Part shown: positions 39,006 through 61,524 of the stretch, in pieces
How positions within the stretch are numbered: the stretch's first letter is position 1
How the letters are laid out: each line of letters opens with the position of its first letter
Assembly: GCF_946479685.1 (NCBI RefSeq)
Contig: NZ_CAMLGS010000009.1
Coordinates: forward strand, 7,509-71,508
Origin: an uncultured Methylotenera sp.
Lineage (GTDB): Bacteria; Pseudomonadota; Gammaproteobacteria; Burkholderiales; Methylophilaceae
Length of the DNA: 64,000 bases
Direction of reading: 5' to 3'
Notes under the pieces: model-generated
Databases searched by the model: none
What the model was told of the DNA's origin: nothing
Seen by the model: the letters and a program-made list of their open reading frames with translations, nothing else
Program-made: the position numbers and the translations under genes

Positions 39006-39023
39006 ATGGGGTGGCTGATGGGG
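39006..39023. repeat. Left attachment site (attL), 18-bp direct repeat
   Basis: ATGGGGTGGCTGATGGGG is identical to 61507-61524, the 3' end of tRNA-His (on the opposite strand: CCCCATCAGCCACCCCAT). Weaker similarity continues for about 12 bases beyond. It marks the left end of the integrated element. Confidence 0.92.
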
Positions 39024-39098
39024 TTCTACCCCATGCAATTCCAAGTCGAAGTTAATCAACGAGTTACAAGTCTAGTATAGCGTATAACACTCAAAATA

Positions 39099-39122
39099 AG
39101 TGCTACCGTTAGTGCTACCCTT
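39099..39122 (+). repeat. Left arm-type integrase repeats (GTGCTACC)
   Basis: AAGTGCTACCGTTAGTGCTAC contains two GTGCTAC words 11 bases apart. The same arrangement in the same orientation is found at the right end (61432-61452, AAGTGCTACCCTTGGTGCTAC). They lie about 75 bases inside the left core repeat and are probably the arm sites of the integrase. Confidence 0.6.
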
Positions 39123-39155
39123 TTCAAGCTCATCCAAAACCTAATTCAGATTGTC

Positions 39156-39237
39156 ATTTGTCGACAAATAAATATCGACAAGGCGTTGACTTCCCAGATT
39201 TACCTTCTATGTTGTGTCGTAAGACAAACGACACAAC
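39156..39237 (+). promoter_or_regulatory. rep promoter with palindromic operators
   Basis: Before the rep start are a perfect 14-bp palindrome ATTTGTCGACAAAT (39156-39169), a promoter-like pair TTGACT (39186-39191) and TATGTT (39208-39213) 16 bp apart, and a perfect 10-bp inverted repeat GTTGTGTCGT/ACGACACAAC (39211-39220, 39228-39237) that ends two bases before the ATG. The last repeat overlaps the promoter and could be an operator, an RNA hairpin that hides the start codon, or a Rep-binding site. Confidence 0.5.
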
Positions 39238-39239
39238 GG

Positions 39240-40196
39240 ATGAACCAACAACTAGAAGATTTTTACTCTCACCTCAATGAAGCCGTCATAACAACTAACG
39301 ACTTTGAAGAAGGCACAAAATATCGCAAGCGCGAAAAAGTACAGCAATTCGCATATTGTGGCCTCAACCCTATGTATCGCAGATATTTAAGTTTTGATCT
39401 TGATGAACAAGGATCAGCGTTCAAGTTTGAAGATGTGAATCTACCGCCCCCGACCATCATTACGATAAACCCTACGAACAAGCACTGTCATTATTTATAT
39501 CATTTAAAAACACCCGTGGCTTACCACGAAAATAGCCGTAGCAAACCTCAACAGTATTTCGAAGCCGTGCAAGATGCCATGACAAGTCGTTTAAATGCAG
39601 ACACGGCATACAGCCACACAATCACTAAAAACCCTTTACATGCAAGATGGCAAGTCATCACAAATAAGGCTAGTTATGACTTGGGTGATTTTCTAGAATA
39701 TATAGATATCAATAAGCTCACAGTAGACAAAGCACTTATTGAGAGGATGGATTGCCGTGGTCGCAATGATTTATTGTTTCACACGCTTAGATTGTGGGGC
39801 TACCGTTCGGTCCATAACTTTATCACCGAGGAAAGTTGGCGCCAGGAAGCCCGAAACAAGGCCCAAGAGATCAATGTCAGCTTCTCTGACCCATTACCAT
39901 ATAAAGAAGTATTTCATACAGCAAATGCCACATCAAAATGGATATGGAGAAATCGTCATAGCTTAGGTGGTAGAGAAAAAGTGCTTACTTTTACTAATGA
40001 ATCTGCTCAAGAGCGCATGAGTAAAGGGGCTGAATACACCAATGCACTAAGAACAAAAAAGGCGATACAAACAATACAAGAAGCCGTCAATTTATTAGTT
40101 GCCTCTGGCTTAAGCATCACCCAGAAAAGTGTTCAAATCAGGTGTGGTCTGAATATTAAAACGGTCCGAAAGTACTGGCCCCAAATTAACAAATAG
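39240..40196 (+). CDS. ColE2-type replication initiator (replicase family)
   Basis: A 318-residue protein resembling the ColE2/ColE3 Rep family, which act as plasmid-specific primases. Seen: the core TIITINPTNKHCHYLYHLKTPV (family pattern INP.NGHAHY.Y.L..PV; only part quoted matters: NPTNKHCHYLY), KNPLHARWQV, then a PriCT-like segment CRGRNDLLFHTLRLWGY, and a C-terminal helix-turn-helix (SITQKSVQIRCGLNIKTVRK). I start at the ATG at 39240; an upstream TTG in frame would place the start within the promoter. It suggests that the element replicates after excision, or derives from a plasmid. Confidence 0.75.
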   Translation: MNQQLEDFYSHLNEAVITTNDFEEGTKYRKREKVQQFAYCGLNPMYRRYLSFDLDEQGSAFKFEDVNLPPPTIITINPTNKHCHYLYHLKTPVAYHENSRSKPQQYFEAVQDAMTSRLNADTAYSHTITKNPLHARWQVITNKASYDLGDFLEYIDINKLTVDKALIERMDCRGRNDLLFHTLRLWGYRSVHNFITEESWRQEARNKAQEINVSFSDPLPYKEVFHTANATSKWIWRNRHSLGGREKVLTFTNESAQERMSKGAEYTNALRTKKAIQTIQEAVNLLVASGLSITQKSVQIRCGLNIKTVRKYWPQINK

Positions 40197-40389
40197 GCAG
40201 CACAATATTGCATCAAAATCACATGTACCCACAACGGCGTGCATCAGTTAATTAGCAGAACTATAGCTGAAGGAGATATTTAAACAAATGAGCAAAATCT
40301 GACAAGACAAATGAGGAAGCTGAAAAACAAAAAACTGATATAAACCATCAGTTGAATGTTTAAGCTAAAAAACTGGCTAAGCTAAGTGA

Positions 40390-40689
40390 TTAAATTTTGA
40401 TCTTTTTCACACTTGCTTTTCTCGGTATAACTTTAAGGAGTGATTCGTATAGATCCAAAGCTTCGATTCGCTTAGCTAAATTTTGAGCAATGTTATCAAA
40501 TTCAAAATCAGAGCAACCGTCATAAATAGTGGAAATATATTCATCAAGAAAATCTTCAGCCTCTTTATATTCTATTCTTAACTGATCATAAATCTGCTTA
40601 GCCTGACGATATTCCTCCTCCTCAATTTTCTGCAAGAACAATGTAACTAAAGCATCGAACTCAATACAATCATCATTAGAATTACTCAT
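40390..40689 (-). CDS. Small acidic hypothetical protein
   Basis: A 99-residue, strongly acidic, helical protein (FLQKIEEEEYRQAKQIYDQL). No family is recognised. The frame is open further upstream, but inside the methyltransferase gene. I choose the ATG at 40689, or its twin at 40692, which overlaps the methyltransferase stop (ATGATGAGTAA), so translation is coupled. An acidic small partner of a DNA-modifying enzyme could be a regulator; this is a guess. Confidence 0.55.
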   Translation of the reverse strand: MSNSNDDCIEFDALVTLFLQKIEEEEYRQAKQIYDQLRIEYKEAEDFLDEYISTIYDGCSDFEFDNIAQNLAKRIEALDLYESLLKVIPRKASVKKIKI

Positions 40690-41923
40690 CATTGCTAGCC
40701 TCCTGACTATTTGATTGCACAGTTTGCTGAACGCATTCATTACCCCAACCTGCCCATCCTTGAGCTGGCACACCTCTGCAAAATAATTCAATCTTGCTAA
40801 GCTCTGGATACATATCATCAATAATTTGGTACATTTCGTCAGGTTTACGGCTATGCTCACGGCGTTTAAATTTCAATACAGATGAAGGGCGAGCACCGTA
40901 TGGCACTTCTGGCACACATCCTTTTGTAGCAATTATCAGCACTTCGTGACCTTGGCGAAAATATGTGCCTTGACCAGCAAAATCCTTATCCCAAACAGCA
41001 CTCGTTTTAAACTTGAAACCCCATGCACTCACCACTTCCACAGCCTCTGGTAATAGTGAGGATGAGCACCACATAAACAAAACTGCGTCATCAGCAGATA
41101 TTTGGCTAATTGGCATCTCGCAGATTTCTTTCACAGACATGCATGGATATCCAACAGCAAGCTCACCCATGTAATCCCAAGGCGGGTCCGCGTAAATTAC
41201 ACTGAATGTGCCTAGTGAAGATTCCAAAGGTTTGTTATTAGCTCTTTTAGCTTCGATTTCTTGGATACGCTCTATACGACGATTTTCAAACTTAGCTTTA
41301 TTGATGGCTTTGCTGGCTTCTTGAATTGCTTTGATGTCATCAAAGTTGAGTTGTGATTGATCTTCTTTTGCGAGTTGGGCAAGTTTTGCTGCATTGCTGA
41401 TATCAAGCTTTCCCTCAGAGACTGCAGCGATGAGCTCCGGAATACCGTTGTTTAAGACTTTCTTTCCTCGCTGAACCGAGTCAACTGAAATGCCCAACTC
41501 TTCTGCCACTTTTCTTTGGGATAATGCTCCAGCAGTATGCTGATTTGAGCCAACAGATGAGTTGGTCAATCTCGCTGCAATAATTGCCTTTTGACTTTCT
41601 GTAAGATGACGTCTGTGCAAATTGATACTAACTACAGATTGCTCTGCAGATTTATCATTCGCGGCTTCCAGCTCTGCGAATTTAGGGATGATTCCTAATG
41701 CGGAACATGCACGTAAGCGATGTCGCCCATCTACCACTTTTCCACCATACATAAGGATTGGCATTTGTAATCCATTCTGCGCGATATCCTGTTTGAGTTC
41801 ATCAAACTGAGATTCCGACATCTCTGGGAACAGATTAGCTATCGGGTGAATTGCTAATCCGTTTGGTGATACCTCATTTTCTAAGCCAATAGAACTATTA
41901 CTTACATTATGTTTTTCTGTCAT
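40682..41923 (-). CDS. ParB-like domain fused to MT-A70 family DNA adenine methyltransferase
   Basis: A 413-residue fusion. The N terminus has a ParB/Srx-type nuclease domain (LKQDIAQNGLQMPILMYGG, VVDGRHRLRACSALG at about 63-76). A helix-turn-helix follows (SQRKVAEELGISVDSVQRGK, about 135-154), and the last 180 residues form an MT-A70 methyltransferase with the catalytic DPPW at 246-249 and VLFMWCSSSLLPEAV. Similar fusions occur on phages and mobile elements and are thought to make N6-methyladenine. It has a clear AAGGAG ribosome site. No cognate endonuclease is adjacent, so it may protect the element from host restriction. Confidence 0.85.
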   Translation of the reverse strand: MTEKHNVSNSSIGLENEVSPNGLAIHPIANLFPEMSESQFDELKQDIAQNGLQMPILMYGGKVVDGRHRLRACSALGIIPKFAELEAANDKSAEQSVVSINLHRRHLTESQKAIIAARLTNSSVGSNQHTAGALSQRKVAEELGISVDSVQRGKKVLNNGIPELIAAVSEGKLDISNAAKLAQLAKEDQSQLNFDDIKAIQEASKAINKAKFENRRIERIQEIEAKRANNKPLESSLGTFSVIYADPPWDYMGELAVGYPCMSVKEICEMPISQISADDAVLFMWCSSSLLPEAVEVVSAWGFKFKTSAVWDKDFAGQGTYFRQGHEVLIIATKGCVPEVPYGARPSSVLKFKRREHSRKPDEMYQIIDDMYPELSKIELFCRGVPAQGWAGWGNECVQQTVQSNSQEASNDE

Positions 41924-42203
41924 TTTTAATTCTCCTTATTAGTAAATATCTTTAATAGTGTTAACTGATTGAAGATGTATCCATTCTAGAAAATTGTGCA
42001 GTTGAAATTAATAGGTCTTAATTAGGTATTAAAAAGCTATGCTTTATTGCCAACCTTTAAAACCAGGTTTACTGATAAAAAATAATCAACGTCAAATTTT
42101 CTTGGGGGGATTTTAATGAGTTACTTTCAGCTTAATAAAATCCTAAAAATGCAATCAAAAAGCTGTTAGTATTTTTTAACTAATGCGATATTGGAATTTG
42201 ATA

Positions 42204-43187
42204 ATGGCAGGCAGAGGTAGGCAACCACGTAGACTGATTGACACCATGAGAACGCAACTATGGGTGCATCAATTAAAACAACTAATGCATGCCAAGAGTT
42301 TTTATGAACTGAATGAAAAGTTTGAAGCTTTTAATACCAATTACAGCTCAGATTATGCAAATGGCAGCACTGGCGTTAACTCAACAACGCGGAAGCTAGT
42401 CGATCAAGAACTAAAAAACAAATATGGTTTTGAATCTATTCAAGCCAGTGATTTTTACAACATTGGTCCAACAGTTGAAGATGATGATGGCGAAGTAGAG
42501 TTTGTCAGGTTTTGGGATGCCTTAGACGGCCCAATTGAAGGGCTATGGGATATCTTGTTTTGGTATGATTTTTCTGCTGAACTACAACATGAGCTAGGAT
42601 TGTCTTTTAAAGTCAAAATCAGTCTAATCATTGCAAGACTATTCAACACTACTGATCCACCAAATGAATGGCTTCAAAAGGATCGGCCAAACTTTGTTGC
42701 TGAAGCTTATCGCTGTGGAGAAATATCGGTCGATTTAAAATTGCTCATAACAGTCATTGCAGTATGGAGACTTGCCAACTTCATGAAGGATAGCGTTCAT
42801 TTAGTCAACTACATGATGATTGGATTATTGGATAAAGCTGCTGAAGATTTGATATCGCCACTCGCTCCTAAGCTCAAAGAAATAAACAAAAACCGAGCAA
42901 CTAATAAAATTGAAAAACCTATAAAAACAAACGAATATCCAAGTTTTTATAGTAACCTTTTACAGCATTTGATAAACCTTGATTCACCGAAAGTACAGAG
43001 ATTTAATGAGGTTGTCGACAAATTCAACGGCTACATTCCTGCAAGCCCGAATCTAATTTCTCACGAGGATGGGAGTGAATCTTTTGAGTTTAAGCAAGAA
43101 AGAGGATTTGAGCACTTTAAAGAAAATGCTCAAGGCACTAGAGTTTCTGAATGTTTAAAATCCAAATTTCAGACTATCATAGGATAG
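42204..43187 (+). CDS. Hypothetical protein of unknown family
   Basis: A 327-residue soluble protein that I do not recognise. It begins MAGRGRQPRRLIDTMRTQLW, a basic N terminus, then a long helical region with many Trp and Phe residues (WDALDGPIEGLWDILFWYDF near 108-127). No catalytic or membrane motif is visible. The ATG at 42204 is preceded by GGAAT at a good distance; the earlier ATG at 42183 has no ribosome site. It stands in the 280-base-spaced region next to the methyltransferase, divergent from it, and is followed by another unknown gene and Hachiman. Confidence 0.6.
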   Translation: MAGRGRQPRRLIDTMRTQLWVHQLKQLMHAKSFYELNEKFEAFNTNYSSDYANGSTGVNSTTRKLVDQELKNKYGFESIQASDFYNIGPTVEDDDGEVEFVRFWDALDGPIEGLWDILFWYDFSAELQHELGLSFKVKISLIIARLFNTTDPPNEWLQKDRPNFVAEAYRCGEISVDLKLLITVIAVWRLANFMKDSVHLVNYMMIGLLDKAAEDLISPLAPKLKEINKNRATNKIEKPIKTNEYPSFYSNLLQHLINLDSPKVQRFNEVVDKFNGYIPASPNLISHEDGSESFEFKQERGFEHFKENAQGTRVSECLKSKFQTIIG

Positions 43188-43356: not shown

Positions 43357-44229
43357 ATGAACCGAATTAAGAAAAATATTACTGTTCGTTTTTTCTCCAT
43401 TGAGACAAAAGGTAAGCTTTTAGAAAGCTTTGCTTCCGCATTTGCTGCAAACAAACTAAATGATAATTCTCGAATCTTAAATCTTAAGCTAAAGAAGCAC
43501 CTAATTAAGATTTCTGAAGAGCATAGCGTAGCTGGCATAAATGCTTATGCAGTGACGGTCGTTCGTGAGAGAAATACCTGGCAAACAAAAGCAACGAGTG
43601 ATGGCTCAATTACTGGGTTAGCTCTTAATCAAGGCATTATTGGGGATCCATATTTCTTTTTTGTTGTTCCAAGTAAGAGCATTATGCTTGGGTTTACTAC
43701 AGGCCCAAGTGGAAGTTTGATTGCAGTTGGCAAAACCATGCTGGATCAATTTAATTCTGACCGTCTTTCAGAGGTTAAATTGGATCTTATAGCGAAAGAA
43801 AAAGATTACGGTTTACTTAGAGATTTACCATCCTATAGTAATTTACACTTCAAAATTCAGTCTTCGTCATTAGCTGATATCTCTGATGATGCGCCACAAA
43901 TGATCAGAAATCTGAGTTCTGCACCTTACATCGACAATAATATGCAGTTGGAACTGGATCTTGATATCAATGATGAAACTAAAGAGGTTTTATCTAAAGA
44001 GATGATTCTGGAACTAGTTGAATTTTTAGCAGACCATGAGGGTTGTAACTTCCTTAAAGTAAAAGGAGTCAACGATAATGGGAATCCAGTGCGCTTGGAT
44101 TTCGGTAATGCATTCATAAACTTTAAAACTGAAATCCAAACCAGAGAGCAGTTTGTCGATGAGACTCTTGCAACCAAGGTTCTGAAAGACGCACTGACTG
44201 ATTACATCGAGGCAAAGCTTAGTGTTTAA
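43357..44229 (+). CDS. Hypothetical protein of unknown family, next to Hachiman
   Basis: A 290-residue soluble protein, beginning MNRIKKNITVRFFSIETKGK and containing a beta-rich middle (YFFFVVPSKSIMLGFTTGPSG) and an acidic C-terminal half. I do not recognise the family and see no catalytic motif. It is convergent with hamB and overlaps it by 11 bases at the 3' ends, which suggests long co-evolution. It could be an accessory or a separate defence gene. Nothing more can be claimed from sequence alone. Confidence 0.65.
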   Translation: MNRIKKNITVRFFSIETKGKLLESFASAFAANKLNDNSRILNLKLKKHLIKISEEHSVAGINAYAVTVVRERNTWQTKATSDGSITGLALNQGIIGDPYFFFVVPSKSIMLGFTTGPSGSLIAVGKTMLDQFNSDRLSEVKLDLIAKEKDYGLLRDLPSYSNLHFKIQSSSLADISDDAPQMIRNLSSAPYIDNNMQLELDLDINDETKEVLSKEMILELVEFLADHEGCNFLKVKGVNDNGNPVRLDFGNAFINFKTEIQTREQFVDETLATKVLKDALTDYIEAKLSV

Positions 44230-46726
44230 ACAGCCCTAATAGCTCTTTCCGAGTGACGTTGTGTATTTCAGAGAGTGCATTCGAATTTAGTAATTCAATG
44301 AGATCTGCATAAGTTTTAATCTCAACCCCAGGTCCAAGTAACTCATCAATTTCAATAGCAGCCTCACGCGACGTGCCTAAGTTTATTAGACCAACAACGC
44401 GATCTTTATATGCCCCGATTTCTAAGTAGGAGTGAAGATTGGCTTTGGAGAGTTCCAATCCTCTATCTGCACGCACGTTGTTTAGTAATAGCTGATAACA
44501 ACGTAGAGCATTAGCTAAACGAAACATCACATCTGTATTGATGGTTTTCATTATTTTTCTGATGGCGGAGTTTGTGCTACCAGTAATTCCACGATCTTTA
44601 TTGAATTGAATTTGGTCGGTAATGATTTCTTTGAGACTATCTCCACGAACCCATTTTCGGGCAATTAGACACACGAAGTCTATCGAGTCATTTTCCTTGG
44701 GCGTAAAAATAAAAAACTCATTTAACTTGTAACATACGGCAAGAAGAGTCTCACGTAATTTAGGTGACATGGGATGAGGAAGTGTCCAATCCTCTAATGA
44801 GCCTAAGCTTGATAGAAATTCGTAGAGATTATTCTGCTGAATATAACCTACAGTAGGGTTGGATTCTAAGGTGAATGTCGGGACTTTTAGATTTGCATGT
44901 GCCGTACCAACAGTTTCTACCAGCAACTTGCGAGCAGGGGCACTTAACTGTAGGTCCTCAGCATTGATGGTATTAGCCAAGTTTTCACTGGCAAACTCTC
45001 TGAGAAGTTTGTTGGCTATCGAGTAATGTTTGTACTGATCACTTTGAGAGTTATCATAATTGCCAGTAAGGGCTGACAGAACACTATCCAACTCTTCATT
45101 AAGTGCTTTGAAGTAGGTTGGGATTTTCTTCTCTTCATCTATTTTCTCTTCAAAGTAGTCTTGAACAGTCCACGTCTTATGGTTGAACAGGAATACGTTG
45201 CCAGAAAAGTGTTTTAACATCCTGCCAGCTCTGCCAGTGATGTTATTGAGTTTTACATCTTCAAGCGGTATTGATGGTTCACCAAACACCGGTTGCATGG
45301 GGTTTTCAAGAAACAAGTTCTTGGCAGGTAGGTTAACGCCTTCTGCTAAAGTGCTGGTACAGGCTATGAAGTTGATATATCCACCTTTGACAAGATTCTC
45401 TACCATGATGCGGACTGAGCTTGGTAATGGGCCATAATGAAAGGCAACACCACTCCTTAGATTGTCGGCAAGACTGTAGTCCTCATGAATGAAATTTTCG
45501 ACATAGTTCGCAGCCTCCTCCTGAGAGGAATGTGGGACGTAGTCTGGAATTTCCTGCTTTACTAGGGCAGCAAGGTCATCAGCCATATTTTCACAATAAT
45601 CAGGTCTATTTCTAAAAATGATATTGTTCTGACCTTGACCTAATTTAAACACTACATCAGCGAATTTCGTCCCTTTAAAACCTTTTGGAATTGAGTAAGA
45701 GCAGTTTTCATTGAACAACGATACTTTCAGGTTTGTACCAATGGTATCTACATTCATTAATATCTTGGCAACTGGTGAGTGTTTTGTAATTTGCTTTTTA
45801 AATTTGACTTCTTTGAAAATAGTGCTGAAGGAATCTTGATAACTATCAGACGGCATGCTGATAATGATTTGAGGTAAACTATTCTCTAGTACCTTTTCAA
45901 TTGTGATGTGAAGTAAGACTCCTCTACTTTCATCAGTAATATTATGGGCTTCATCAATAAATAAGTAGTTGAAGTTGATATCACCCTTAAGCATGACTTC
46001 ATGCAGTCTTTCTTGAGTCATGACAAAGAAAGTCTTTGAGCGGAATTGACCGTCCCTTGGGACAGTACAAATCTCAATATCTTTTCCGAGGTCTTGTTCT
46101 TTTATCAGCTCATATAGTTTGCTTGCCACCTCGGTAATGAGCGCTCTTGTCGGCACAACAATTGCAGCAAATGCGCCATCACTTCTCCCAACACTATCAA
46201 GTAAGTAATTTAAAATGATGTGAGTTTTACCTGCTGAAGTTGGTGCTGAAGTAATGACATCCTCACCTGAAACCAGCTGTTCCCATAAGACTCTTTGGAA
46301 ATCAGTCAAGGTAAATTCCATTTCTTCAACGGTGTTTAGGTCACGCCTGAAGTCGTTAAGCGCATGTAGATCAAAACTATATTGGTATTGAACCTCTGGA
46401 TAACGTTCGGTCAATAGGTCTATATTGGGGAAATCTCCGCTACTTGCAAATAGATTATTGGCAATTGGTATTAAAGCAGGATGTTCATTGCCATATAGGT
46501 CCAGTAGCATGGCCAATAGAACCGCACCTTCATCTTTAAAGATTTTATGTTCTGATTTATGAAATATCTGTGCTGCATCAGCTAACTTCTTGATCTCTCC
46601 CTTTTCAAGAGGCTTATTTTTACCAATCAAGTCGGTCACATAAGAGCTGAACAATTGCTGCCTACTTTGGTTGTAGGCATTGCTGTTGATGACTTTTTCG
46701 GAGAGTGTTCGGAAGAATTCACTCAT
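44219..46726 (-). CDS. hamB: Hachiman defence helicase HamB
   Basis: An 835-residue superfamily 2 helicase of the Ski2-like type. Walker A APTSAGKT at 161-168, DEAH box FIDEAHNI (258-261 DEAH), motif V region TSTLAEGVNLPAKN at 457-470, motif VI NNITGRAGRM at 495-503. The C-terminal 300 residues are helical. The gene overlaps the DUF1837 gene upstream by four bases (ATGA), the standard Hachiman order hamA-hamB. In Hachiman the helicase is thought to survey DNA and release the HamA nuclease during phage infection. Confidence 0.88.
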   Translation of the reverse strand: MSEFFRTLSEKVINSNAYNQSRQQLFSSYVTDLIGKNKPLEKGEIKKLADAAQIFHKSEHKIFKDEGAVLLAMLLDLYGNEHPALIPIANNLFASSGDFPNIDLLTERYPEVQYQYSFDLHALNDFRRDLNTVEEMEFTLTDFQRVLWEQLVSGEDVITSAPTSAGKTHIILNYLLDSVGRSDGAFAAIVVPTRALITEVASKLYELIKEQDLGKDIEICTVPRDGQFRSKTFFVMTQERLHEVMLKGDINFNYLFIDEAHNITDESRGVLLHITIEKVLENSLPQIIISMPSDSYQDSFSTIFKEVKFKKQITKHSPVAKILMNVDTIGTNLKVSLFNENCSYSIPKGFKGTKFADVVFKLGQGQNNIIFRNRPDYCENMADDLAALVKQEIPDYVPHSSQEEAANYVENFIHEDYSLADNLRSGVAFHYGPLPSSVRIMVENLVKGGYINFIACTSTLAEGVNLPAKNLFLENPMQPVFGEPSIPLEDVKLNNITGRAGRMLKHFSGNVFLFNHKTWTVQDYFEEKIDEEKKIPTYFKALNEELDSVLSALTGNYDNSQSDQYKHYSIANKLLREFASENLANTINAEDLQLSAPARKLLVETVGTAHANLKVPTFTLESNPTVGYIQQNNLYEFLSSLGSLEDWTLPHPMSPKLRETLLAVCYKLNEFFIFTPKENDSIDFVCLIARKWVRGDSLKEIITDQIQFNKDRGITGSTNSAIRKIMKTINTDVMFRLANALRCYQLLLNNVRADRGLELSKANLHSYLEIGAYKDRVVGLINLGTSREAAIEIDELLGPGVEIKTYADLIELLNSNALSEIHNVTRKELLGLFKH

Positions 46727-52682: not shown

Positions 52683-54385
52683 TGAAGCTACAAAGAATAA
52701 AAATCGAAAAGTTTAGAGGGATTCGTTTATCAGAAATTAACGTGGGGAATGAGTTAGCAATAGTTGGACAAAATAGTGCTGGAAAATCCTCTATATTGCG
52801 AGCGCTCAATGCTTTTTTTAATTTTGATAGTGAGCAAAAATCATTTACCACTGGTCGACATAATTTTCAAAATACATCTACATCTGTTATCGAGGTGGAA
52901 TTCTCAGACGTACCAATCGCGTGTACTTTACCTAGAACGAATGCGAATTCTACAAACTTAATATTGCGCCTGAGATATAAAAAATCTCCAGTTTGGCAGG
53001 TGTATTCTAGTGGCACATGGCAGGCTCTTCAAAGTGATTGGATTGATGAATTAAGGAAATTTATTAAATATGTTTATGTGCCATTAAGAAGAGACCATGA
53101 AGTGTCAGGTTGGGGAGATAATGGTTTACTGAAATCAGCGGTTGATGCATGGATGTTAAGTCATACGAGTAAGCGAGATACTATCAGCCCCCAAGTTTCC
53201 CGACTTGCAAGCTTTATACAAAACGGTGCATTAAAGGGGCTAACCAAACACCTCGATAAAGTAACACCTATTAATGGGAGCTTTGCCTTTAACTTGGAGT
53301 TTGGAGCTCTACCAGATTATCGATTACTAATAAATGAACTGGTATTAAAAATATCTGAAGGAACTATTGTTGTTGACATAGAAGACTGTGGAAGCGGAAC
53401 ACAAAGTTTATCCGCTTTTGCATTGTACTCATATTTAGCTGAGCTTGAAGGTAATACATATATTTTGGGAATTGAAGAGCCTGAACAAAACCTGCACCCA
53501 CAAGCACAGAGAGAACTTCTAAAAAGCCTTAAGAGCCTGCCCATGCAAGTGTTATTTACTACTCACTCTACCGTTATTGTTGATGAGCTAGACCATGATG
53601 AGGTTGTTCTTTGCAGACGTATAAAGTCTTCAACAAGAGATATTGAAATTAATACCACTCAACTTGATAGCGGATTTTGGAGAGAAAATAGCCTCGATAA
53701 GAACAAGTACTATCAATTTTATAAAAGACGAAATTCAGAATTTTTCTTTTCAAATTTTGTGATTTTGACCGAAAGTCCGATTGATGCTGAAATTGTCAAA
53801 AAGCTTTTAATTGATGCGAAAGTTGACCCTATAGAATATGGCGTTTCTATATTAAGTCTAGATGGTGTTGATTCACTACCTTATGCATTTCATCTACTTA
53901 CAGAGTTGAGTTTTTCATTTGCAACAATTGTTGATAAAGACTACTTTTTACCATATTTGAATGATGAGTTAGTTAAGAGTAGAAGTACAAATGGGTTTCC
54001 AAGATACAAGAGAGAATATCAGGCTGGTACGATAATAGATAAATTGCTACCAGGTTTACAAGATAGAAACCAATTACTTAATTTTTTTCATATCAATCAT
54101 TCCAAAGCAATGACAATACTAGAAGAGTTTAATGTTTACTGTTTTAAATGGTCTCTGGAAGTTGATTTGGTAAATTCTGGCCCAGCAAAACAATTCCTCT
54201 ACAGGAAGCTAGGTATTCCTGCGAATCAACAGTCAAGTAAAACCTTATTAGAGCAACATCATAAAGCGTTAAAGCGCCTAGAACACTTGATGCCGACTGT
54301 TAGCTCTTTGAAGCCCACAAACCTTCCTAACTCATACAGTCGAATTAAGAAGTCTCTATCTTTGAAAATAAGAGCAAATAAATGA
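52682..54385 (+). CDS. OLD-like ATPase with TOPRIM nuclease domain inside the hsd operon
   Basis: A 567-residue protein. The ABC-type ATPase domain has Walker A GQNSAGKS at 29-36, signature CGSGTQS at 236-242 and Walker B ILGIEEPEQNLHPQ at 261-274. The C-terminal half is a TOPRIM nuclease (FVILTESPIDAEIV with Glu364; TIVDKDYF with the DxD-like pair at 428-430). This is the layout of overcoming-lysogenization-defect nucleases and of GajA, but no GajB-type helicase is adjacent. Coupled to hsdS, it probably is an added antiviral effector of the operon. Confidence 0.82.
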   Translation: MKLQRIKIEKFRGIRLSEINVGNELAIVGQNSAGKSSILRALNAFFNFDSEQKSFTTGRHNFQNTSTSVIEVEFSDVPIACTLPRTNANSTNLILRLRYKKSPVWQVYSSGTWQALQSDWIDELRKFIKYVYVPLRRDHEVSGWGDNGLLKSAVDAWMLSHTSKRDTISPQVSRLASFIQNGALKGLTKHLDKVTPINGSFAFNLEFGALPDYRLLINELVLKISEGTIVVDIEDCGSGTQSLSAFALYSYLAELEGNTYILGIEEPEQNLHPQAQRELLKSLKSLPMQVLFTTHSTVIVDELDHDEVVLCRRIKSSTRDIEINTTQLDSGFWRENSLDKNKYYQFYKRRNSEFFFSNFVILTESPIDAEIVKKLLIDAKVDPIEYGVSILSLDGVDSLPYAFHLLTELSFSFATIVDKDYFLPYLNDELVKSRSTNGFPRYKREYQAGTIIDKLLPGLQDRNQLLNFFHINHSKAMTILEEFNVYCFKWSLEVDLVNSGPAKQFLYRKLGIPANQQSSKTLLEQHHKALKRLEHLMPTVSSLKPTNLPNSYSRIKKSLSLKIRANK

Positions 54386-54406: not shown

Positions 54407-55435
54407 ATGAGTGACCTGCTACCACAAGCAACTAACTTTATTCTTTATACCGCACCGAATGGCGATGTGCAGTTGAATGTTGTTTTGCAAGAAGAGACAG
54501 TTTGGCTTAATCAGCGTGGAATGGAGTCATTGTTTAATGTTGCAAAGTCTACACTTAGCGAGCATTTGAAGAACATTTATGACAGTGGCGAATTGGCCCG
54601 TGAGGCAACTGTTCGGAATTTCCGAACAGTTCAAATTGAGGGTGGACGCGAAGTCGCTAGAAATATTGATTACTATAATTTGGACGCGATTATCTCTGTT
54701 GGGTATCGCGTTAACTCTTACGAGGCTACGCAGTTCCGCATTTGGGCAACTCGAACGCTTAAAGAATATATTATCAAAGGCTTTGTATTGGATGATGAAC
54801 GGCTCAAGCAAGGCACTCAGGTATTTGGTAAAGATTACTTTGATGAGTTGCTTGATCGCATCCGTGAGATACGCGCTAGTGAAAGAAGGTTTTACCAAAA
54901 GATTACTGACATCTATGCTTTATCGGCTGATTATGACAAGAACGCTACTCTTACCAAAGATTTTTTTGCTACTGTTCAAAATAAGCTGCACTGGGCAATT
55001 ACAGGCAAAACTTCAGCTGAAATAGTTTATAAATCTGCGAATGCATCTTTACCAAATATGGGCTTAATGACATTCAAAAACGCCCCAGACGGAAAAGTAT
55101 TAAAGGGTGATATTTCCATAGCCAAGAACTACCTTTCGGAACAGCACATTAAAGAGCTAGAGCGTATTGTTTCAGCTTACTTAGATTTAGCTGAAAACCG
55201 TGCCGAGCGACAAATTGTGATGAAAATGGCTGATTGGGTAACGTTCTTAAATAGCTTTTTAGAACTTTCAAATTACCCAATTTTGCAGGACAACGGCAAA
55301 ATAAGTGCTGAGATGGCAAAATTAAAAGCTGAAAAAGAATACGAGGTGTTTAGAGTAAAGCAAGATCAACAATATGTGTCTGATTTTGATAAAACTGTAA
55401 AATCTCTCAAAAAACCTGAAAACAAGAAAAAGTAA
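54407..55435 (+). CDS. rhuM: RhuM family protein
   Basis: A 342-residue protein of the RhuM family, with the opening FILYTAPNGDVQLNVVLQEETVWLNQ, SVGYRVNSYEATQFRIWAT and the helical second half LKEYIIKGFVLDDERL. (Only short pieces are diagnostic: VWLNQ, and YRVNS.) RhuM proteins are common inside type I restriction operons; their role is unknown. It has a HTH-like part near residues 35-55 (AKSTLSEHLKNIY). It stands between the OLD-like gene and hsdR in the same direction. Confidence 0.85.
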   Translation: MSDLLPQATNFILYTAPNGDVQLNVVLQEETVWLNQRGMESLFNVAKSTLSEHLKNIYDSGELAREATVRNFRTVQIEGGREVARNIDYYNLDAIISVGYRVNSYEATQFRIWATRTLKEYIIKGFVLDDERLKQGTQVFGKDYFDELLDRIREIRASERRFYQKITDIYALSADYDKNATLTKDFFATVQNKLHWAITGKTSAEIVYKSANASLPNMGLMTFKNAPDGKVLKGDISIAKNYLSEQHIKELERIVSAYLDLAENRAERQIVMKMADWVTFLNSFLELSNYPILQDNGKISAEMAKLKAEKEYEVFRVKQDQQYVSDFDKTVKSLKKPENKKK

Positions 55436-55450
55436 AATCTAGGGCTATCT

Positions 55451-58400
55451 TTGGAAAATCTAAACGAAAATGCGATTGAAGTATTAGCGATTGAACGCTT
55501 ACAAGCACTCGGCTACGAATACATATATGCCCCAGGCATCGCACCTGACGGCAGCACGCCCGAACGTGAAAGCTTTGCTGATGTATTACTCATCAAGCGA
55601 TTGCAAGCAGCCGTTAGACGTATTAATCCCACCATTGCTCAGCCAGCACTAGATGAAGCAATTAAAGTCATTCAACGCATTAGCTCCCCTGAACTACTTG
55701 CTAACAACGAAACATTTCACAGACTACTCACAGAGGGCGTAAATGTAAGCTATCAAAAAGATGGCAATCAACGCGGTGATTTGGTGTGGTTGGTGGACTT
55801 TGCCAACCCTGACAATAATGAGTTTTTGGTGGCGAACCAGTTCACCATTATTGAAAACAACCAAAACAAACGCCCAGATTTGATTTTGTTTGTGAATGGT
55901 ATTCCACTCGTAGTGATTGAGCTTAAAAATGCGACTGACGAGAATGCCACAATCAAATCTGCTTATCAGCAACTGAGCACCTACAAAGAAACAATACCTA
56001 GCTTATTTACTTACAATGGTTTTGTGGTTGTTTCAGATGGGCTAGAAGCAAAAGCTGGCTCAATCTCAGCCGGGTTAAGTCGCTATATGGCTTGGAAAAC
56101 TGCTGATGGTAAAACAGAGGCTTCAAAACTGATTGGGCAACTGGAAACACTGATCGACGGCATGCTGAACAAAGTGACGTTGCTGGATTTGATTCGTCAT
56201 TTTATTGTTTTTGAAAAGTCCTCAAAGGAAGGCCCCAAGCAAGCAGATGGCACGCCTGGCCTCGTTAGTATCAGCACCGTTAAAAAACTAGCTGCGTATC
56301 ATCAATACTATGCAGTCAATGCTGCTGTCATATCAACATTAAGGGCTACCGCTGAGGCGGTAAGCTTAGCACAAACGCCTGCCAGTTATGGCTTGAGTGA
56401 TGTTCGTAGCCAGCCTAAGGGGGATCGCAAGGCTGGTGTGGTGTGGCATACACAAGGTAGTGGAAAATCACTCTCTATGGTGTTTTATACAGGGAAGATT
56501 GTCCTTGCTCTGAACAACCCTACTATTTTAGTGATTACCGATAGAAACGACTTAGACGACCAACTATTTGACACCTTTGCATCCTCATCACAGTTGCTGC
56601 GCCAAGAGCCTAAGCAAGTGGAGGATCGACAACAACTCAAAGAGTTGTTGAAAGTGGCATCAGGTGGCGTGATCTTTACAACCATCCAAAAATTTCAGCC
56701 TGAAGAAGGCAATATTTACGAAACGTTATCTGAGCGCAGAAACATCGTTGTCATTGCCGATGAAGCCCATCGCACCCAATATGGCTTTAAAGCTAAAACT
56801 GTTGATGACAAGAACAAAGCTGGTGATGTCATTGGTCAAAAGATTGTGTACGGGTTTGCCAAATATATGCGTGATGCATTACCGAATGCTACATACCTAG
56901 GATTTACAGGCACACCGATTGAAAGTACAGATGTAAATACACCAGCAGTATTTGGTAATTATGTAGATATCTACGATATTGCCCAAGCCGTAGAAGATGG
57001 CGCTACGGTGCGCATTTATTACGAAAGCCGATTAGCCAAAGTTCAGTTAAGCGATGAAGGCAAAAAACTAGTGGCTGAGCTTGATGAAGAGCTTGATCAA
57101 GACGAGCTCTCAGAAACGCAAAAAGCCAAAGCTAAGTGGACACAAATAGAAGCACTGATTGGTAGTGAAAGACGCATTCAAAACATTGCACAAGATATTG
57201 TGGCGCATTTTGAACAAAGACAAGAAGTGTTTGATGGAAAAGGCATGATTGTCAGCATGTCTAGAAGAATTGCTGCTGAACTATATGATGCAATTATTAA
57301 GCTTAAACCTGAGTGGCATTCAAACGAATTGCACAAAGGTGCTATCAAAGTGGTAATGACAGCATCTTCTGCTGATGGCCCAATGCTTGCCAAACACCAT
57401 ACAACGAAGCTACAGCGTAAAGCACTCGCTGAGCGTATGAAAGATCCCGACGACGAATTAAAACTCGTTATCGTGCGTGATATGTGGCTTACAGGCTTTG
57501 ATGCGCCTAGCATGCATACTCTATATATAGACAAGCCAATGAAGGGCCACAATCTGATGCAAGCGATTGCTAGGGTTAACCGTGTATATAAAGACAAGCC
57601 AGGTGGTTTGATTGTTGACTATCTGGGAATTGCATCAGACCTGAAGGAAGCTTTATCTTTTTATTCTGATGCAGGTGGTAAAGGCAACCCAGCCGAGACA
57701 CAAGAGCAAGCAGTCGCATTGATGCTAGAAAAGCTTGAAGTTGTCTCAGACATGTATCACGGCTTCCCTTATGAGGACTACTTTGAAGCAGACACCTCTA
57801 AAAAGCTATCTTTGATTCTTGCAGCCGAGGAACATATTCTGAGCATTGACGATGGTAAGCGACGTTATGTGAATGAGGTCACTGCACTGTCTCAAGCTTT
57901 CGCTATTGCCATTCCCCACGATCAAGCCATGGATGTGAAAGATGAAGTTGCTTTCTTTCAAGCTGTAAAAGCACGATTAGCTAAATTTGATAGTACAGGT
58001 AATGGCAAGACCGATGAGGAAATTGAAACAACGATACGCCAGGTGATTGATAAGGCATTAGTTTCAGAACAGGTGATTGATGTATTTGATGCTGCCGGCA
58101 TCAAAAAACCTGATATCTCTATTTTGTCTGAAGAGTTTTTGCTTGAGCTTAAAAATCATGAGCATAAAAACGTTGCACTAGAAGTGTTAAAAAAACTACT
58201 CAACGATGAGCTTAAAGTACGAGCCAAGAAAAACTTGGTGCAAAGCCGAAGCTTAATGGAAATGCTAGAAAACGCCATTAAGAAGTATCACAACAAAATA
58301 CTGACAGCAGCTGAAGTCATGGACGAACTGATTAAAATCAGTAAAGAAATAGTAGCTTCCGATGATGAAGCTAAAAATCTAGGCTTATCGGAGTTTGAAT

Positions 58401-58672
58401 ATGCGTTCTATTCAGCCGTTGCTAACAACAATAGTGCTAAGGAACTTATGCAACACGACCAGTTACGTGAGTTGGCAGTAGTGTTAACGCAACGTGTTAG
58501 AGAAAATGCATCCATTGACTGGACGATTAAGGAAAGCGTAAAAGCCAAACTCAAAGTTATCGTAAAACGTACATTACGACAATTTGGCTATCCGCCTGAT
58601 ATGCAATTGTTAGCAACTGAGACAATCATGAAACAAGCTGAAATGATTGCCTCAGAATTAACAAAGAGCTAA
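55451..58672 (+). CDS. hsdR: Type I restriction enzyme, endonuclease/translocase subunit
   Basis: A 1073-residue HsdR. The nuclease domain has Asp143 in RPDLILF and Glu157-x-Lys159 in VIELKN. The motor has Walker A HTQGSGKS (about 333-340), DEAH at 437-440 and GFTGTPIE. It cuts unmodified DNA after ATP-driven translocation. The start is TTG with an AGGG ribosome site six bases before; the next residues (ENAIEVLAIERLQALGY) match the usual start of the family, so it is a genuine start. Confidence 0.93.
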   Translation: MENLNENAIEVLAIERLQALGYEYIYAPGIAPDGSTPERESFADVLLIKRLQAAVRRINPTIAQPALDEAIKVIQRISSPELLANNETFHRLLTEGVNVSYQKDGNQRGDLVWLVDFANPDNNEFLVANQFTIIENNQNKRPDLILFVNGIPLVVIELKNATDENATIKSAYQQLSTYKETIPSLFTYNGFVVVSDGLEAKAGSISAGLSRYMAWKTADGKTEASKLIGQLETLIDGMLNKVTLLDLIRHFIVFEKSSKEGPKQADGTPGLVSISTVKKLAAYHQYYAVNAAVISTLRATAEAVSLAQTPASYGLSDVRSQPKGDRKAGVVWHTQGSGKSLSMVFYTGKIVLALNNPTILVITDRNDLDDQLFDTFASSSQLLRQEPKQVEDRQQLKELLKVASGGVIFTTIQKFQPEEGNIYETLSERRNIVVIADEAHRTQYGFKAKTVDDKNKAGDVIGQKIVYGFAKYMRDALPNATYLGFTGTPIESTDVNTPAVFGNYVDIYDIAQAVEDGATVRIYYESRLAKVQLSDEGKKLVAELDEELDQDELSETQKAKAKWTQIEALIGSERRIQNIAQDIVAHFEQRQEVFDGKGMIVSMSRRIAAELYDAIIKLKPEWHSNELHKGAIKVVMTASSADGPMLAKHHTTKLQRKALAERMKDPDDELKLVIVRDMWLTGFDAPSMHTLYIDKPMKGHNLMQAIARVNRVYKDKPGGLIVDYLGIASDLKEALSFYSDAGGKGNPAETQEQAVALMLEKLEVVSDMYHGFPYEDYFEADTSKKLSLILAAEEHILSIDDGKRRYVNEVTALSQAFAIAIPHDQAMDVKDEVAFFQAVKARLAKFDSTGNGKTDEEIETTIRQVIDKALVSEQVIDVFDAAGIKKPDISILSEEFLLELKNHEHKNVALEVLKKLLNDELKVRAKKNLVQSRSLMEMLENAIKKYHNKILTAAEVMDELIKISKEIVASDDEAKNLGLSEFEYAFYSAVANNNSAKELMQHDQLRELAVVLTQRVRENASIDWTIKESVKAKLKVIVKRTLRQFGYPPDMQLLATETIMKQAEMIASELTKS

Positions 58673-58682: not shown

Positions 58683-59222
58683 TTATCTTTCGTTGATATT
58701 TTGCTGAAAGATTTCCATCCATCTTTTAAGCTCTATCTCAGTTTTTTTGTTGTTATGCTCACTCCAGGGAAAAGCTACTCGCCACTCAGGATTATCAATG
58801 TCTTTCACTTTCAGAAAAAATCCAGAGCCAGCTTCATTTTCTTTATTTTGTCGGTAATTTTGTGCACCCTCTGCTAACGTCCTATTGCTCATAGAAGTAC
58901 CACCAGTTTTCAAACTGTATGACCAGTCACGAATATCTCTGAAGTCATACTTCTTAAACTTGTCCCCATCAAGCAAGTGAACTTGGCGTGTTGCTGTGTT
59001 GACACCAATACCAGTAAGCTTATGGTAATGCTGATAGTTACATCCCTCAGCTAGCCTTGACCACTCTGCTTTCTTGCTGGCATTTTGCATTCTGGCGTTA
59101 ATAGGTTGCCATATTAACCAGCCACCTAGCCCACCTCCGACAAAAAGAAAAATTGAGTTATGCATCTCTATATAGTAAGCATAGCCAATCAAAATAAGTA
59201 TCACACCAAAGAATATCTTCAC
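58683..59222 (-). CDS. Small membrane protein (DUF4755-like)
   Basis: A 179-residue protein with two N-terminal hydrophobic segments (FFGVILILIGYAYYI and SIFLFVGGGLGGWLIW) and a cytoplasmic domain with YDFRDIRDW and VKDIDNPEWRVAF, which resembles DUF4755. Function unknown. It lies after the hsdR stop in opposite orientation, with a lipoprotein gene twelve bases upstream. Confidence 0.6.
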   Translation of the reverse strand: MKIFFGVILILIGYAYYIEMHNSIFLFVGGGLGGWLIWQPINARMQNASKKAEWSRLAEGCNYQHYHKLTGIGVNTATRQVHLLDGDKFKKYDFRDIRDWSYSLKTGGTSMSNRTLAEGAQNYRQNKENEAGSGFFLKVKDIDNPEWRVAFPWSEHNNKKTEIELKRWMEIFQQNINER

Positions 59223-59233: not shown

Positions 59234-59515
59234 TTATTGTTTTTTCTTAAGATTACCAAACGGCGTTTTTAGCGATCCATCTTCTAGAATGGTGAAGATA
59301 ATATTCTGCCCATTGCTTTCTACCTTAACCTTATTGCCATCTACTTCGTACCTGCCTTCAGTTTCAATACCAATCGCACTCATCAAAACTTTATCGCCAG
59401 ATTCAAACGTATAACTCACTACGCCTGTCTTATCTGCATACTCACCACTTAACTTTGAACCACAGGCAGACAATAGAAACAACATAGTCAATACACATAT
59501 TTTTCTCACACACAC
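59234..59515 (-). CDS. Predicted small lipoprotein
   Basis: A 93-residue protein with signal sequence and lipobox LLSACGSK (Cys18) and a small beta-rich mature part (YADKTGVVSYTFESGDKVLM). This type of repeated beta-hairpin domain occurs in many small lipoproteins that accompany phage-derived genes, but I cannot name the family. It is divergent from the XRE regulator across an operator-rich gap. Confidence 0.65.
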   Translation of the reverse strand: MCVRKICVLTMLFLLSACGSKLSGEYADKTGVVSYTFESGDKVLMSAIGIETEGRYEVDGNKVKVESNGQNIIFTILEDGSLKTPFGNLKKKQ

Positions 59516-59595: not shown

Positions 59596-59603
59596 AGTTA
59601 ATT

Positions 59604-59948
59604 ATGATGACAAAATCTAAAAAATATTTAGCTGAGCAGATAGGTCAGTGCATAGCCAAACGTAGGCTTGCTGCTGGGTTTACTCAGCATCAGGTCGCTG
59701 AAAAGCTTGGAATAGGCTATGAGGCGGTTTCCAGAATGGAACGTGGGGTGACAATACCGACCGTGATTAGACTGGCTGATTTAGCCGAGATATTCGGCTG
59801 TGGTATTCAAGAACTTTTAATTGAGTCTAGCGATAGACCTGATGAGCAAGCTGAGCAGATTAAAAACATGCTGGCAAAGCTGAATAGCGAAGACAGAAAT
59901 ATGATCTTGGAAACCATACAAAAGCTCTATCTTCGCCTAAAACCATAG
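59604..59948 (+). CDS. XRE-family transcriptional regulator
   Basis: A 114-residue repressor with a Cro/CI-type helix-turn-helix (AAGFTQHQVAEKLGIGYEAV, then SRMERG at about 22-46) and a helical C-terminal part (PDEQAEQIKNMLAKLNSED). It is divergent from the small lipoprotein/membrane pair and reads towards the integrase stop. The dyads in front of it suggest autoregulation and control of the divergent genes. Confidence 0.88.
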   Translation: MMTKSKKYLAEQIGQCIAKRRLAAGFTQHQVAEKLGIGYEAVSRMERGVTIPTVIRLADLAEIFGCGIQELLIESSDRPDEQAEQIKNMLAKLNSEDRNMILETIQKLYLRLKP

Positions 59949-59955
59949 ATTCCTG

Positions 59956-61407
59956 CTACTGATTAGCCACCTTCTTATCCTCGTTGTATGCCTTTTTGGC
60001 TTCTTTTCTTTTCATACTTCTGATCAACTCATACATAAAATTGTCTGACTCAAAGTCAAAATGAAACTCACCAAAATCCACACCGTGCTCAATTTGATTA
60101 AGGTGTGTCAGCATATAACTTAAAGAAAGATGCTCCTTACTTTTGGCTCCCTCTTCTTCACTTCCATAAGTCTCATCAGTGATATCGAAGTCAATATGAT
60201 GCCCAAGAATAGACTTGCGCAAATTTGAGGGGTATTTTGCGTCGTCCATTTTAGCGCTGAGGGTTTTTCTTAAGCTGTGAAACGTTTTCAGTTCCTCATC
60301 CACTTTAATCAACTCTTGCTTATGCTTTGTGAAGTTATAACCTAAAGTTTTACCGTATCCATTTTTTGTTTTGATGAGATACGGATATAAATGAGAGTCC
60401 TCACCATAGTTTTTCAAAACATATGCGTGATAATCCAGAAAGTTAGTTTTAAGAATAAATCTAGGAATGGGTAAAATGCGCTTTGATGACTCAGTTTTTA
60501 GCTCTTTGTCATCGCCATACTCATTAATATCAATAACCCAGGTACCACCACTATCATAGATATCGGTCACACGAAGCTGTGCAGCTTCTTCCAACCTTAA
60601 GCCCATCGTTAATGCTATTAGGGGGGAGTAGAATAAATCTGGTTTTCTAAAACGCTTGAAATAACCCTCCACTTCAAACAACCGGCCAATCTCTTCTGGT
60701 CTAAAACGCACATAGCTATCTGTGACAGACTTTAGCTGTGATTTTTTTACTAAATGAAGATTGGCAAATGGATTTTTAAATTTATATTGTTCTATTTGAA
60801 TTAAGTAGTCAAAAAACTGCTTAATAGATTTGGTGTGATTATCTACTGTAAGTGGGCTGGCTTCTTTAGTATTGATATGATCTCTATAATCAGTGGCGAA
60901 TGTTTTTTGTACAGCCTCTGCATCTGTTATTTTCTTTGAACGCGCATAATTGATAAATTTAGTCACTCTTGAGTAGTAAGCATCGCGTGTAGCTTCAGAA
61001 TAAACTTTATAGGTCGCACTCTTCCAACTTTTAAAGCCGTCATCTAACGAATACAATTTTGGAGGGGCTACTATAGGCTTGGATACTTTCATGCCTATAC
61101 GGTCGACTAAATCATCATAGGCAGCCTTTTCTGCTGGACTATCAAGATTAAAGTCATATGAAGTGCCCTCATGCTCAACTTTGAGTGCAGGAAACCTTTT
61201 GTCATCACCTATCGCCATACTTTTTAGCCATTCCTCAAATGCAAGATTGATCTTTAATGCCCGAATGTAAGCAACGCTTCTATCCTTGGTTTTAAGACTA
61301 TAAATTATTTTGGGATGCTGAGTATAAGGAATCAGGTTTTTTGGCACTAGCAGGCGTATGTAATACACGCCTGAAGCTTTTTGGTAGGTTCTTGAGGGTG
61401 TGGGCAT
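59956..61407 (-). CDS. int: Tyrosine recombinase (site-specific integrase)
   Basis: A 483-residue integrase. The N-terminal part (TYQKASGVYYIRLLVPKNL) resembles the arm-binding region of related island integrases; a core-binding SAM-like domain follows. The catalytic set is complete: Arg in MGLRLEEAAQLR (about 271), Lys in TESSKR, His-x-x-Arg in FHSLRKT (377-380), His in LGHHID (403) and the nucleophile Tyr in DETYGS (414). I start at the ATG at 61407 with a GGAG site six bases before; an in-frame TTG further upstream overlaps that site. It is next to tRNA-His and reads in the same direction. Confidence 0.93.
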   Translation of the reverse strand: MPTPSRTYQKASGVYYIRLLVPKNLIPYTQHPKIIYSLKTKDRSVAYIRALKINLAFEEWLKSMAIGDDKRFPALKVEHEGTSYDFNLDSPAEKAAYDDLVDRIGMKVSKPIVAPPKLYSLDDGFKSWKSATYKVYSEATRDAYYSRVTKFINYARSKKITDAEAVQKTFATDYRDHINTKEASPLTVDNHTKSIKQFFDYLIQIEQYKFKNPFANLHLVKKSQLKSVTDSYVRFRPEEIGRLFEVEGYFKRFRKPDLFYSPLIALTMGLRLEEAAQLRVTDIYDSGGTWVIDINEYGDDKELKTESSKRILPIPRFILKTNFLDYHAYVLKNYGEDSHLYPYLIKTKNGYGKTLGYNFTKHKQELIKVDEELKTFHSLRKTLSAKMDDAKYPSNLRKSILGHHIDFDITDETYGSEEEGAKSKEHLSLSYMLTHLNQIEHGVDFGEFHFDFESDNFMYELIRSMKRKEAKKAYNEDKKVANQ

Positions 61408-61431
61408 CACTTTCTCCAAGTAATGACTTGG

Positions 61432-61452
61432 AAGTGCTACCCTTGGTGCTAC
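61432..61452 (+). repeat. Right arm-type integrase repeats (GTGCTACC)
   Basis: AAGTGCTACCCTTGGTGCTAC repeats the pattern seen at 39099-39119. It lies about 55 bases inside the right core repeat, immediately before the int start, so integrase binding here could also control its own gene. Confidence 0.6.
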
Positions 61453-61506
61453 TGCTTACAAAATAGATACACAGCTAAGTGCATAATTTTAAACAGTAAT
61501 AAGAAA

Positions 61507-61524
61507 ATGGGGTGGCTGATGGGG
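61507..61524. repeat. Right attachment site (attR), overlapping tRNA-His
   Basis: An exact 18-bp copy of 39006-39023. It covers the 3' acceptor strand with CCA and part of the T arm of tRNA-His, so insertion restores an intact tRNA. Confidence 0.92.

Follow-up and report, generated by a model that had tools for sequence, protein, structure and literature searches.

Does an island that carries both an integrase and a plasmid-type replication gene keep a replicon of its own? The question is raised by a 22.5-kb element inserted at the 3' end of a tRNA-His gene in chromosomal DNA of a bacterium of the Methylophilaceae close to Methylotenera (64,000 nucleotides of contig NZ_CAMLGS010000009.1, hereafter the window, to which coordinates refer unless another genome is named). 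A preliminary description of this DNA had proposed an island of this size in tRNA-His with an exact 18-bp repeat at both ends, a complete tyrosine integrase at the tRNA, a ColE2-like Rep, a MobC/relaxase pair and at least two complete defence systems, and all of these were borne out by our analysis. We regard the element as probably an integrative and mobilizable element (IME) that has a ColE2-type replicon of its own. Its ends, the empty sites in relatives, the uninterrupted genes, purifying selection on Rep, the differences in cargo and the pairing of one backbone with very different integrases are all directly supported by the comparisons below.

Ends of the element and empty sites in relatives

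The following features define the insertion.

38971..39000 (−): terminator-like hairpin outside the element, just left of the left repeat
39006..39023 (+): attL core, the left attachment repeat, an exact 18-bp match to 61507-61524 with an imperfect continuation to 39033
39100..39118 (+): two GTGCTAC repeats, putative integrase arm sites on the left
59956..61407 (−): tyrosine integrase with a DUF6538 N-terminus (PF20172, PF00589), its start about 0.1 kb from the tRNA
61434..61452 (+): two GTGCTAC repeats, putative integrase arm sites on the right
61507..61524 (+): attR core, the right attachment repeat, within tRNA-His and paired with 39006-39023
61508..61583 (−): tRNA-His, the target gene, intact (ARAGORN, Rfam), with 61508-61524 as its 3' end

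If mismatches are allowed, the end repeats reach beyond the 18 exact base pairs to 28 nt (89% identity). The folD/tRNA stretch matches six Methylophilaceae genomes at 84-88%, the closest being G500, taken to be M. mobilis, and comparison of 16.5-39.8 kb at the tRNA-His locus of these genomes found the site empty in five (G537, G501, G539, G506 and G502) and occupied by an element in M. mobilis. In the first four of the empty genomes the aligned left-neighbour stretch stops 0.2-0.9 kb from tRNA-His with a terminator hairpin in between; in G502 the gap is 3.9 kb, the hairpin is present, and no integrase-like frame was found. Because the tRNA-His sites of relatives are uninterrupted, and because the similar hairpin that lies beside their tRNA sits left of the left repeat here, the end repeat is not a product of chance. 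An empty attachment site in sister genomes had been named beforehand as the test of the island, and a lack of any empty site or of any variation among relatives as the outcome that would tell against it; five empty sites were found, and the M. mobilis element differs in part of its cargo. The G+C content is about 35-44% in the element and 41-53%, mostly above 45%, in the left flank.

The wider set comprised 30 relatives' loci around tRNA-His and folD, reaching up to 1.5 kb past the tRNA. The repeat-forming 3' end of the tRNA is present in 29 of them and was not found in L042, where the match begins inside the tRNA. An integrase-like frame occurs in three of the 30 loci, namely the window's integrase in M. 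mobilis and other integrases within about 1.5 kb of tRNA-His in L028 and L046, so that several elements may use this site. A separate stretch with genes of 159 and 825 aa adjoins the attachment site left of tRNA-His in M. mobilis (L050); it matches about 2.7 kb of the gap in G502 (L051) at 81% and does not occur in the window.

The integrase residues R275, K305, H381, R384, H407 and Y418 (numbered from 61419), which we take to be the catalytic ones, are invariant among 30 relatives. Homologues and upstream conservation place the integrase start at the ATG at 61407 and the Rep start at the ATG at 39240, rather than at the first in-frame TTG codons. With respect to the putative arm sites, the M. 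mobilis element likewise has two copies of the motif on the left, and one exact copy only on the right.

The probable replicon, its candidate origin and the mobilization genes

The genes and sites on which replication and mobilization would depend are these.

39211..39237 (+): 10-bp perfect inverted repeat just before rep, folding as a 10-bp stem, a possible control element
39240..40196 (+): rep, ColE2-type replication initiator/primase, 318 aa (PF03090, E 7e-53)
40219..40262 (+): candidate replication origin, with the core TCAGNTAATTAGC at 40244-40256
47915..48181 (+): conserved non-coding stretch before mobC, from its position a candidate origin of transfer (oriT), conserved in G500 and largely in the more distant genome G460
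48182..48577 (+): mobC, NikA/MobC-like relaxosome protein (PF21983, PF05713)
48574..49929 (+): mobA, MbeA/VirD2-like relaxase (PF03432, E 1e-6, partial, 42-99 of 132; NF047848, E 3e-25, below cut-off)

Rep combines a PF03090 replicase domain with similarity to the solved chain 3vw4, matched by the Rep alignment at E 9e-9, which is presumably ColE2-P9 Rep; by these features the putative replicon is of the ColE2 type. Its residues D71, D73 and H102 (numbered from 39186) are invariant in 24 sequences. The ratio of nonsynonymous to synonymous divergence (dN/dS) of Rep is 0.055 between the window and G500 and 0.079 between the window and G460, with dS near 1; these values are close to the 0.02-0.07 of three chromosomal genes, and mobC, mobA and the integrase gene (int), at 0.04-0.18, are constrained as well. 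Judged from these ratios, Rep is under purifying selection and does not look like a relic, a result that fits replication after excision without proving it. The arms of the inverted repeat upstream of rep are identical in G500 and G460 and similar in G082. We also considered this repeat as a covarying RNA, but the five sequences aligned poorly, and our claim is limited to the inverted repeat.

Searches with a Rep profile (alignment A2) found relatives in 4 of 187 Methylophilaceae genomes at E <= 1e-20, in 6 of 399 genomes of the order and, at E <= 1e-60, in 4 of 398 genomes of the family of G004; the three draws may overlap. Eighteen Rep places resulted, 17 of which were compared with longer flanks and one (G282:C265) by its search locus alone. 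Nine elements bear the core: those of the window, G500, G460, G434:C195, G082:C10, G584, G905, G625 and G747.

The 13-nt core begins 48 nt past the rep stop in the window. It is exact in seven of the nine elements and has one mismatch in the other two (G625 and G747), and it starts 46-59 nt after the rep stop in eight, lying 3.65 kb away in G584. When all loci assembled alongside the first two Rep draws were scanned on both strands, exact copies were found only after rep in the window, G500, G460, G434 and G082 (4 of the 14 relatives' Rep places of the Methylophilaceae and order draws; a longer pattern was run on 0.93 Mb). The core is also exact in G584 and G905, which together with G625 and G747 make up the four genomes from the draw at E <= 1e-60. 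With up to one mismatch allowed between -150 and +200 nt of the rep stop, it was absent from 9 of the 10 remaining places, where Reps are at most 39% identical; at G282:C265 a one-mismatch copy lies about 0.3 kb past the end of the Rep match. In G625 (L113+L114) two one-mismatch cores stand about 3.4 kb apart, at 20952 and 24374 of the joined contig, between rep and a ParB-methyltransferase gene, an arrangement suggestive of a cargo insertion accompanied by duplication of the core.

The relaxase frame is uninterrupted despite the partial Pfam match, and the 15 best-ranked plasmid matches of mobA are 26-33% identical. Our Pfam scan covered 20 open reading frames (ORFs), 19 within the element plus folD, and in the 19 element ORFs it gave no match to type IV secretion or conjugation-apparatus families or to phage structural families. 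The element thus has its own integrase with direct repeats, and MobC with a relaxase and no complete conjugation apparatus in the scanned ORFs, which is the make-up of an IME. Uninterrupted frames with profiles matched over most of their length were found for Rep, MobC, HamA, HamB, HsdM, HsdS and HsdR.

Backbone, integrases and cargo across the family

The remaining genes of the element are either shared backbone or cargo.

40682..41923 (−): ParB-N/MT-A70 adenine methyltransferase fusion, backbone (PF05063, E 1e-24; ParB TIGR00180, E 4e-7, below cut-off; matches to MT-A70 structures)
42183..43187 (+): backbone gene without a Pfam match, 78-79% identical in G500 and G460
43357..44229 (+): cargo gene beside Hachiman, without a Pfam or PADLOC match and without a relative in the G500 and G460 elements
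44219..46726 (−): hamB, Hachiman helicase (PADLOC HamB, profile 1-834 of 836, E 0)
46723..47613 (−): hamA, Hachiman nuclease (PF08878, E 6e-35; PADLOC HamA, E 1e-133)
50029..51570 (+): hsdM, type I methyltransferase (PF02384, E 9e-109)
51567..52682 (+): hsdS, specificity subunit (PF01420), 33% identical to its M. mobilis counterpart
52682..54385 (+): OLD-like ATPase/TOPRIM nuclease, cargo within the hsd operon (PF13175, PF20469; PADLOC Old/GajA)
54407..55435 (+): RhuM-family gene, cargo within the hsd operon (PF13310, E 6e-114; PADLOC PDC-S05)
55451..58672 (+): hsdR, type I restriction subunit (PF04313, PF18766, PF11867)
58683..59222 (−): DUF4755 gene (PF15947, E 1.5e-55), common to M. mobilis
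59234..59515 (−): small gene, 78% identical in M. mobilis
59604..59948 (+): HTH_3 regulator (PF01381, E 4e-15), with relatives in G500, G460, G905 and G747

Two complete defence systems are present: Hachiman, with adjacent and full-length hamA and hamB, and a type I restriction-modification system with HsdM, HsdS and HsdR. Gabija consists of GajA together with GajB. Here an Old/GajA-like protein lies between HsdS and RhuM, and RhuM has no GajB match, the matches for HsdM, HsdS and Old being covered down to the best 25 each; we therefore do not count a Gabija system.

The M. mobilis element has the identical 18-bp repeat, including at its left end, with a start-to-start spacing of 22,554 bp. 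It shares with the window, at 78-94% amino acid identity, rep, the ParB-methyltransferase, the 42183-43187 gene, mobC, mobA, hsdM, hsdR, the DUF4755 gene, the small gene, the HTH regulator and int. In place of Hachiman and the gene beside it, the M. mobilis element has two genes that match neither Pfam nor PADLOC. A second cargo site separates hsdS from hsdR, and it holds the OLD-like and RhuM genes in the window (52682-55435) and a HATPase gene, the Kiwa genes KwaA and KwaB, an HTH gene and a PIN gene in M. mobilis (L049:8436-13077). Part of the set formed by Hachiman, type I restriction, OLD-like and RhuM genes is thus exchangeable cargo.

An unrooted tree of six chromosomal genes from seven genomes (8,449 columns) splits the window and G500 from the other five at 100/100, so that the two hosts are sisters provided that the root lies outside the pair. 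At fourfold sites ten element genes diverge by 0.24-0.67, a range that overlaps the 0.25-0.50 of four chromosomal genes. Because the element genes are about as diverged as the chromosomal ones, one ancestral insertion followed by cargo exchange fits the pair as well as two insertions do, and we have dropped independent insertions in M. mobilis and the window as a claim.

The family reaches further than this pair. A more distant Methylophilaceae genome, G460, carries a 15.06-kb element bounded by a 28-nt repeat within the 5' portion of tRNA-Gly. In this element Rep is 85%, the ParB-methyltransferase 87%, the 42183-43187 product 79%, MobC 92% and the relaxase 74% identical to the window's, and the integrase only 24% over 268 residues. 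Since the five backbone genes are closer in DNA (75-86%) than folD is (68%) in this comparison, the backbone seems to have passed from one host lineage to another. A 5.1-kb contig of G434 has a Rep of 68% identity with yet another integrase. At tRNA-Gly 3' ends, Trinickia terrae (G584) carries a 20.2-kb element with 20-nt repeats and Caballeronia udeis (G905) a 15.3-kb element with 18-nt repeats, both with a Rep of 57% identity, MobC, a relaxase and the ParB-methyltransferase. Cargo includes an SMC-like ATPase and a cytosine methyltransferase with an MvaI/BcnI-type nuclease in G460, Shedu in G905, and SIR2, a putative AbiC and a PD-Lambda-2-like gene in G584. Each of the five elements with mapped ends carries known or candidate defence genes, and the sets differ from one element to another.

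Among the nine core-bearing elements, both ends could be mapped in five; no end repeats were found for G625 and G747 in the stretches tried. Eight have an integrase, the exception being G082, whose contig ends 2.9 kb from rep, and six have a relaxase, with none in the scanned DNA of G434, G082 and G625. The eight integrases form 28 pairs, of which window-G500 is 90% and G584-G905 59% identical, and the other 26 are 21.5-37.7% identical; all are tyrosine recombinases matched by one profile, and they are therefore very different rather than unrelated. The preliminary description had also offered two readings, a plasmid that gained an integrase or an element that replicates after excision. The first now looks too simple, because one Rep backbone is found together with a number of highly dissimilar tyrosine integrases, and integrases thus seem to have been exchanged. 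The Rep profile found no match in any of four genomes with 44%-identical integrases, so that integrases of this wider type are not bound to the present Rep.

Two backbone genes deserve separate mention. The ParB-methyltransferase, a ParB/Noc-type N-terminus fused to MT-A70, is present in eight of the nine core-bearing elements (not in G747), and partition, self-methylation or both are candidate roles. The protein encoded at 42183-43187 has no known domain; 18 relatives of it were found among about 5.8 billion proteins, and its AlphaFold model is of low confidence (mean pLDDT 50).

Proposed mechanism, alternatives and known elements

From this arrangement we infer excision, replication of a circle, transfer and the function of the origin. 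The integrase would excise the element between the two tRNA-His repeats, and the circle would place integrase and rep, which lie at opposite ends of the element and would point away from each other, on either side of the joined attachment site. Acting at an origin that closely follows its own gene, Rep would keep the circle replicating; MobC and the relaxase would nick oriT before mobC, a helper conjugative element would carry the circle, and the integrase would insert it into the tRNA-His of the recipient. One tentative possibility, to which we give somewhat less than even weight, is that these elements form a defence-carrying family, so far of Methylophilaceae and Burkholderiaceae, whose heritable core is the replicon with the mobilization module. 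According to this proposal, integrases would be captured and exchanged, the circle would be the lasting form, integration in a tRNA gene would be replaceable storage, and the core after rep would be a shared origin.

Several observations weigh against an IME with its own working replicon. No circle, excision or transfer has been observed, and no excisionase was recognised by Pfam in the 19 element ORFs. A search for free plasmids with a close Rep found none: the best-ranked match is 32% identical, and each of the 2,810 matching records stays below 60%. The core was not found after 9 of the 18 relatives' Rep places, all with distant Reps, nor in two ColE2-type plasmids. In addition, a single old insertion may lie behind both the window copy and the M. 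mobilis copy, and neither has to be active today. An unlikely though serious alternative builds on this last point: a formerly mobile island, inserted once in the ancestor of the host and M. mobilis, would now be inherited vertically, with Rep and Mob genes that are retained yet seldom if ever used, and with cargo altered through homologous recombination. The grouping of the two hosts in the unrooted tree and the overlapping fourfold-site divergences agree with it, but low dN/dS in rep, mobC, mobA and int, the lack of any broken backbone gene among those seen, and a backbone closer than folD in a distant genome with another integrase (G460) all speak against it. Phage satellites, too, carry integrases, primase-type Reps and defence genes, and Rep might amplify the element after induction by a helper phage, with spread in phage particles. 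We consider this very improbable, given that MobC and the relaxase are present and conserved, that no capsid, terminase or packaging family was detected in the scanned element ORFs, and that Rep relatives were not found in viral contigs. The integrase search of viral contigs returned one record (L014), and the DNA of the whole element had no match among phages; among plasmids it matched at hsdM (72%, in eight Acinetobacter records) and over 37 nt of the tRNA-His end in one Aeromonas record.

Instead of being an origin, the core after rep could serve the ParB-methyltransferase as a parS-like partition site, or mark a hot spot for insertions. The G584 core is far from rep and about 0.24 kb away from the ParB-methyltransferase gene, and the second copy in G625 stands at about the same distance from that gene. 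Set against this are the position shortly after rep in eight of nine elements and the case of G747, where the core follows rep yet no ParB-methyltransferase was recognised in 19.9 kb. Origins of ColE2-like plasmids, as described in PMC2831885, usually lie immediately downstream of repA, and we therefore favour an origin as the likeliest role of the core and treat a partition site as its main rival, at perhaps one chance in a few for the non-origin roles.

How does an IME with a ColE2-type replicon compare with known systems? Mobilizable SGI1-like islands, GIVchO27-1 and GISen-26, have an alternative Rep with the same PF03090 domain, with an origin described as yet to be characterised; these islands lie in trmE and have the SGI1 layout, whereas the present element has a tRNA target, a MobC/MbeA-type relaxase and the ParB-methyltransferase (PMC7433901). 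Integration at tRNA-His rather than trmE places it outside the SGI1 family. The excised form of SGI1 itself replicates by means of its own dedicated Rep, from an origin that directly follows rep, but that Rep is of a different, iteron-based type and the replicating form is reported only with a helper plasmid (PMC7433901, PMC7826253). BcenGI2 and other IMEs have a plasmid-type initiator, and BcenGI2 sits in a tRNA gene as here, although its initiator is of the Rep_3 type and no ColE2-type Rep appears in passages on such elements in a 2017 review (PMC5704250), which stated that replication of excised IMEs had never been studied; that of SGI1 has been demonstrated since (PMC7433901). The mobilizable pPDL2 of Sphingobium combines an integrase and an attP for a tRNA gene with a working repA/oriV, but it occurs as a free plasmid, its Rep is of another type and its cargo is catabolic (PMC3516476). 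Integrated elements with archaeo-eukaryotic primases (AEPs), of which ColE2 Rep-like proteins form one family, often lie in tRNA genes and are sometimes mobilizable, but that survey covered families other than ColE2 Rep-like (PrimPol-PV1) (PMC5862659). Among the open-licence papers listed for Methylotenera islands, ColE2-type or defence-carrying IMEs, Burkholderia tRNA-Gly islands and ParB plasmid-like islands, none describes this family by its title or the start of its abstract, though it may be in print elsewhere; passages of a paper on Methylophilaceae islands treat other islands (PMC10872708). IMEs with their own replicon, even with this class of Rep, are thus already published, and what is new is this element and its small family of relatives.

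The family provides a compact test set in which one rep-origin block under clear selection is combined with very different integrases, two types of tRNA and different defence genes. For islands with a PF03090 Rep, two SGI1-like examples of which were reported with an uncharacterised origin (PMC7433901), it also supplies a concrete origin candidate. Elements of this kind would illustrate a route by which sets of defence genes may pass among bacteria in the environment.

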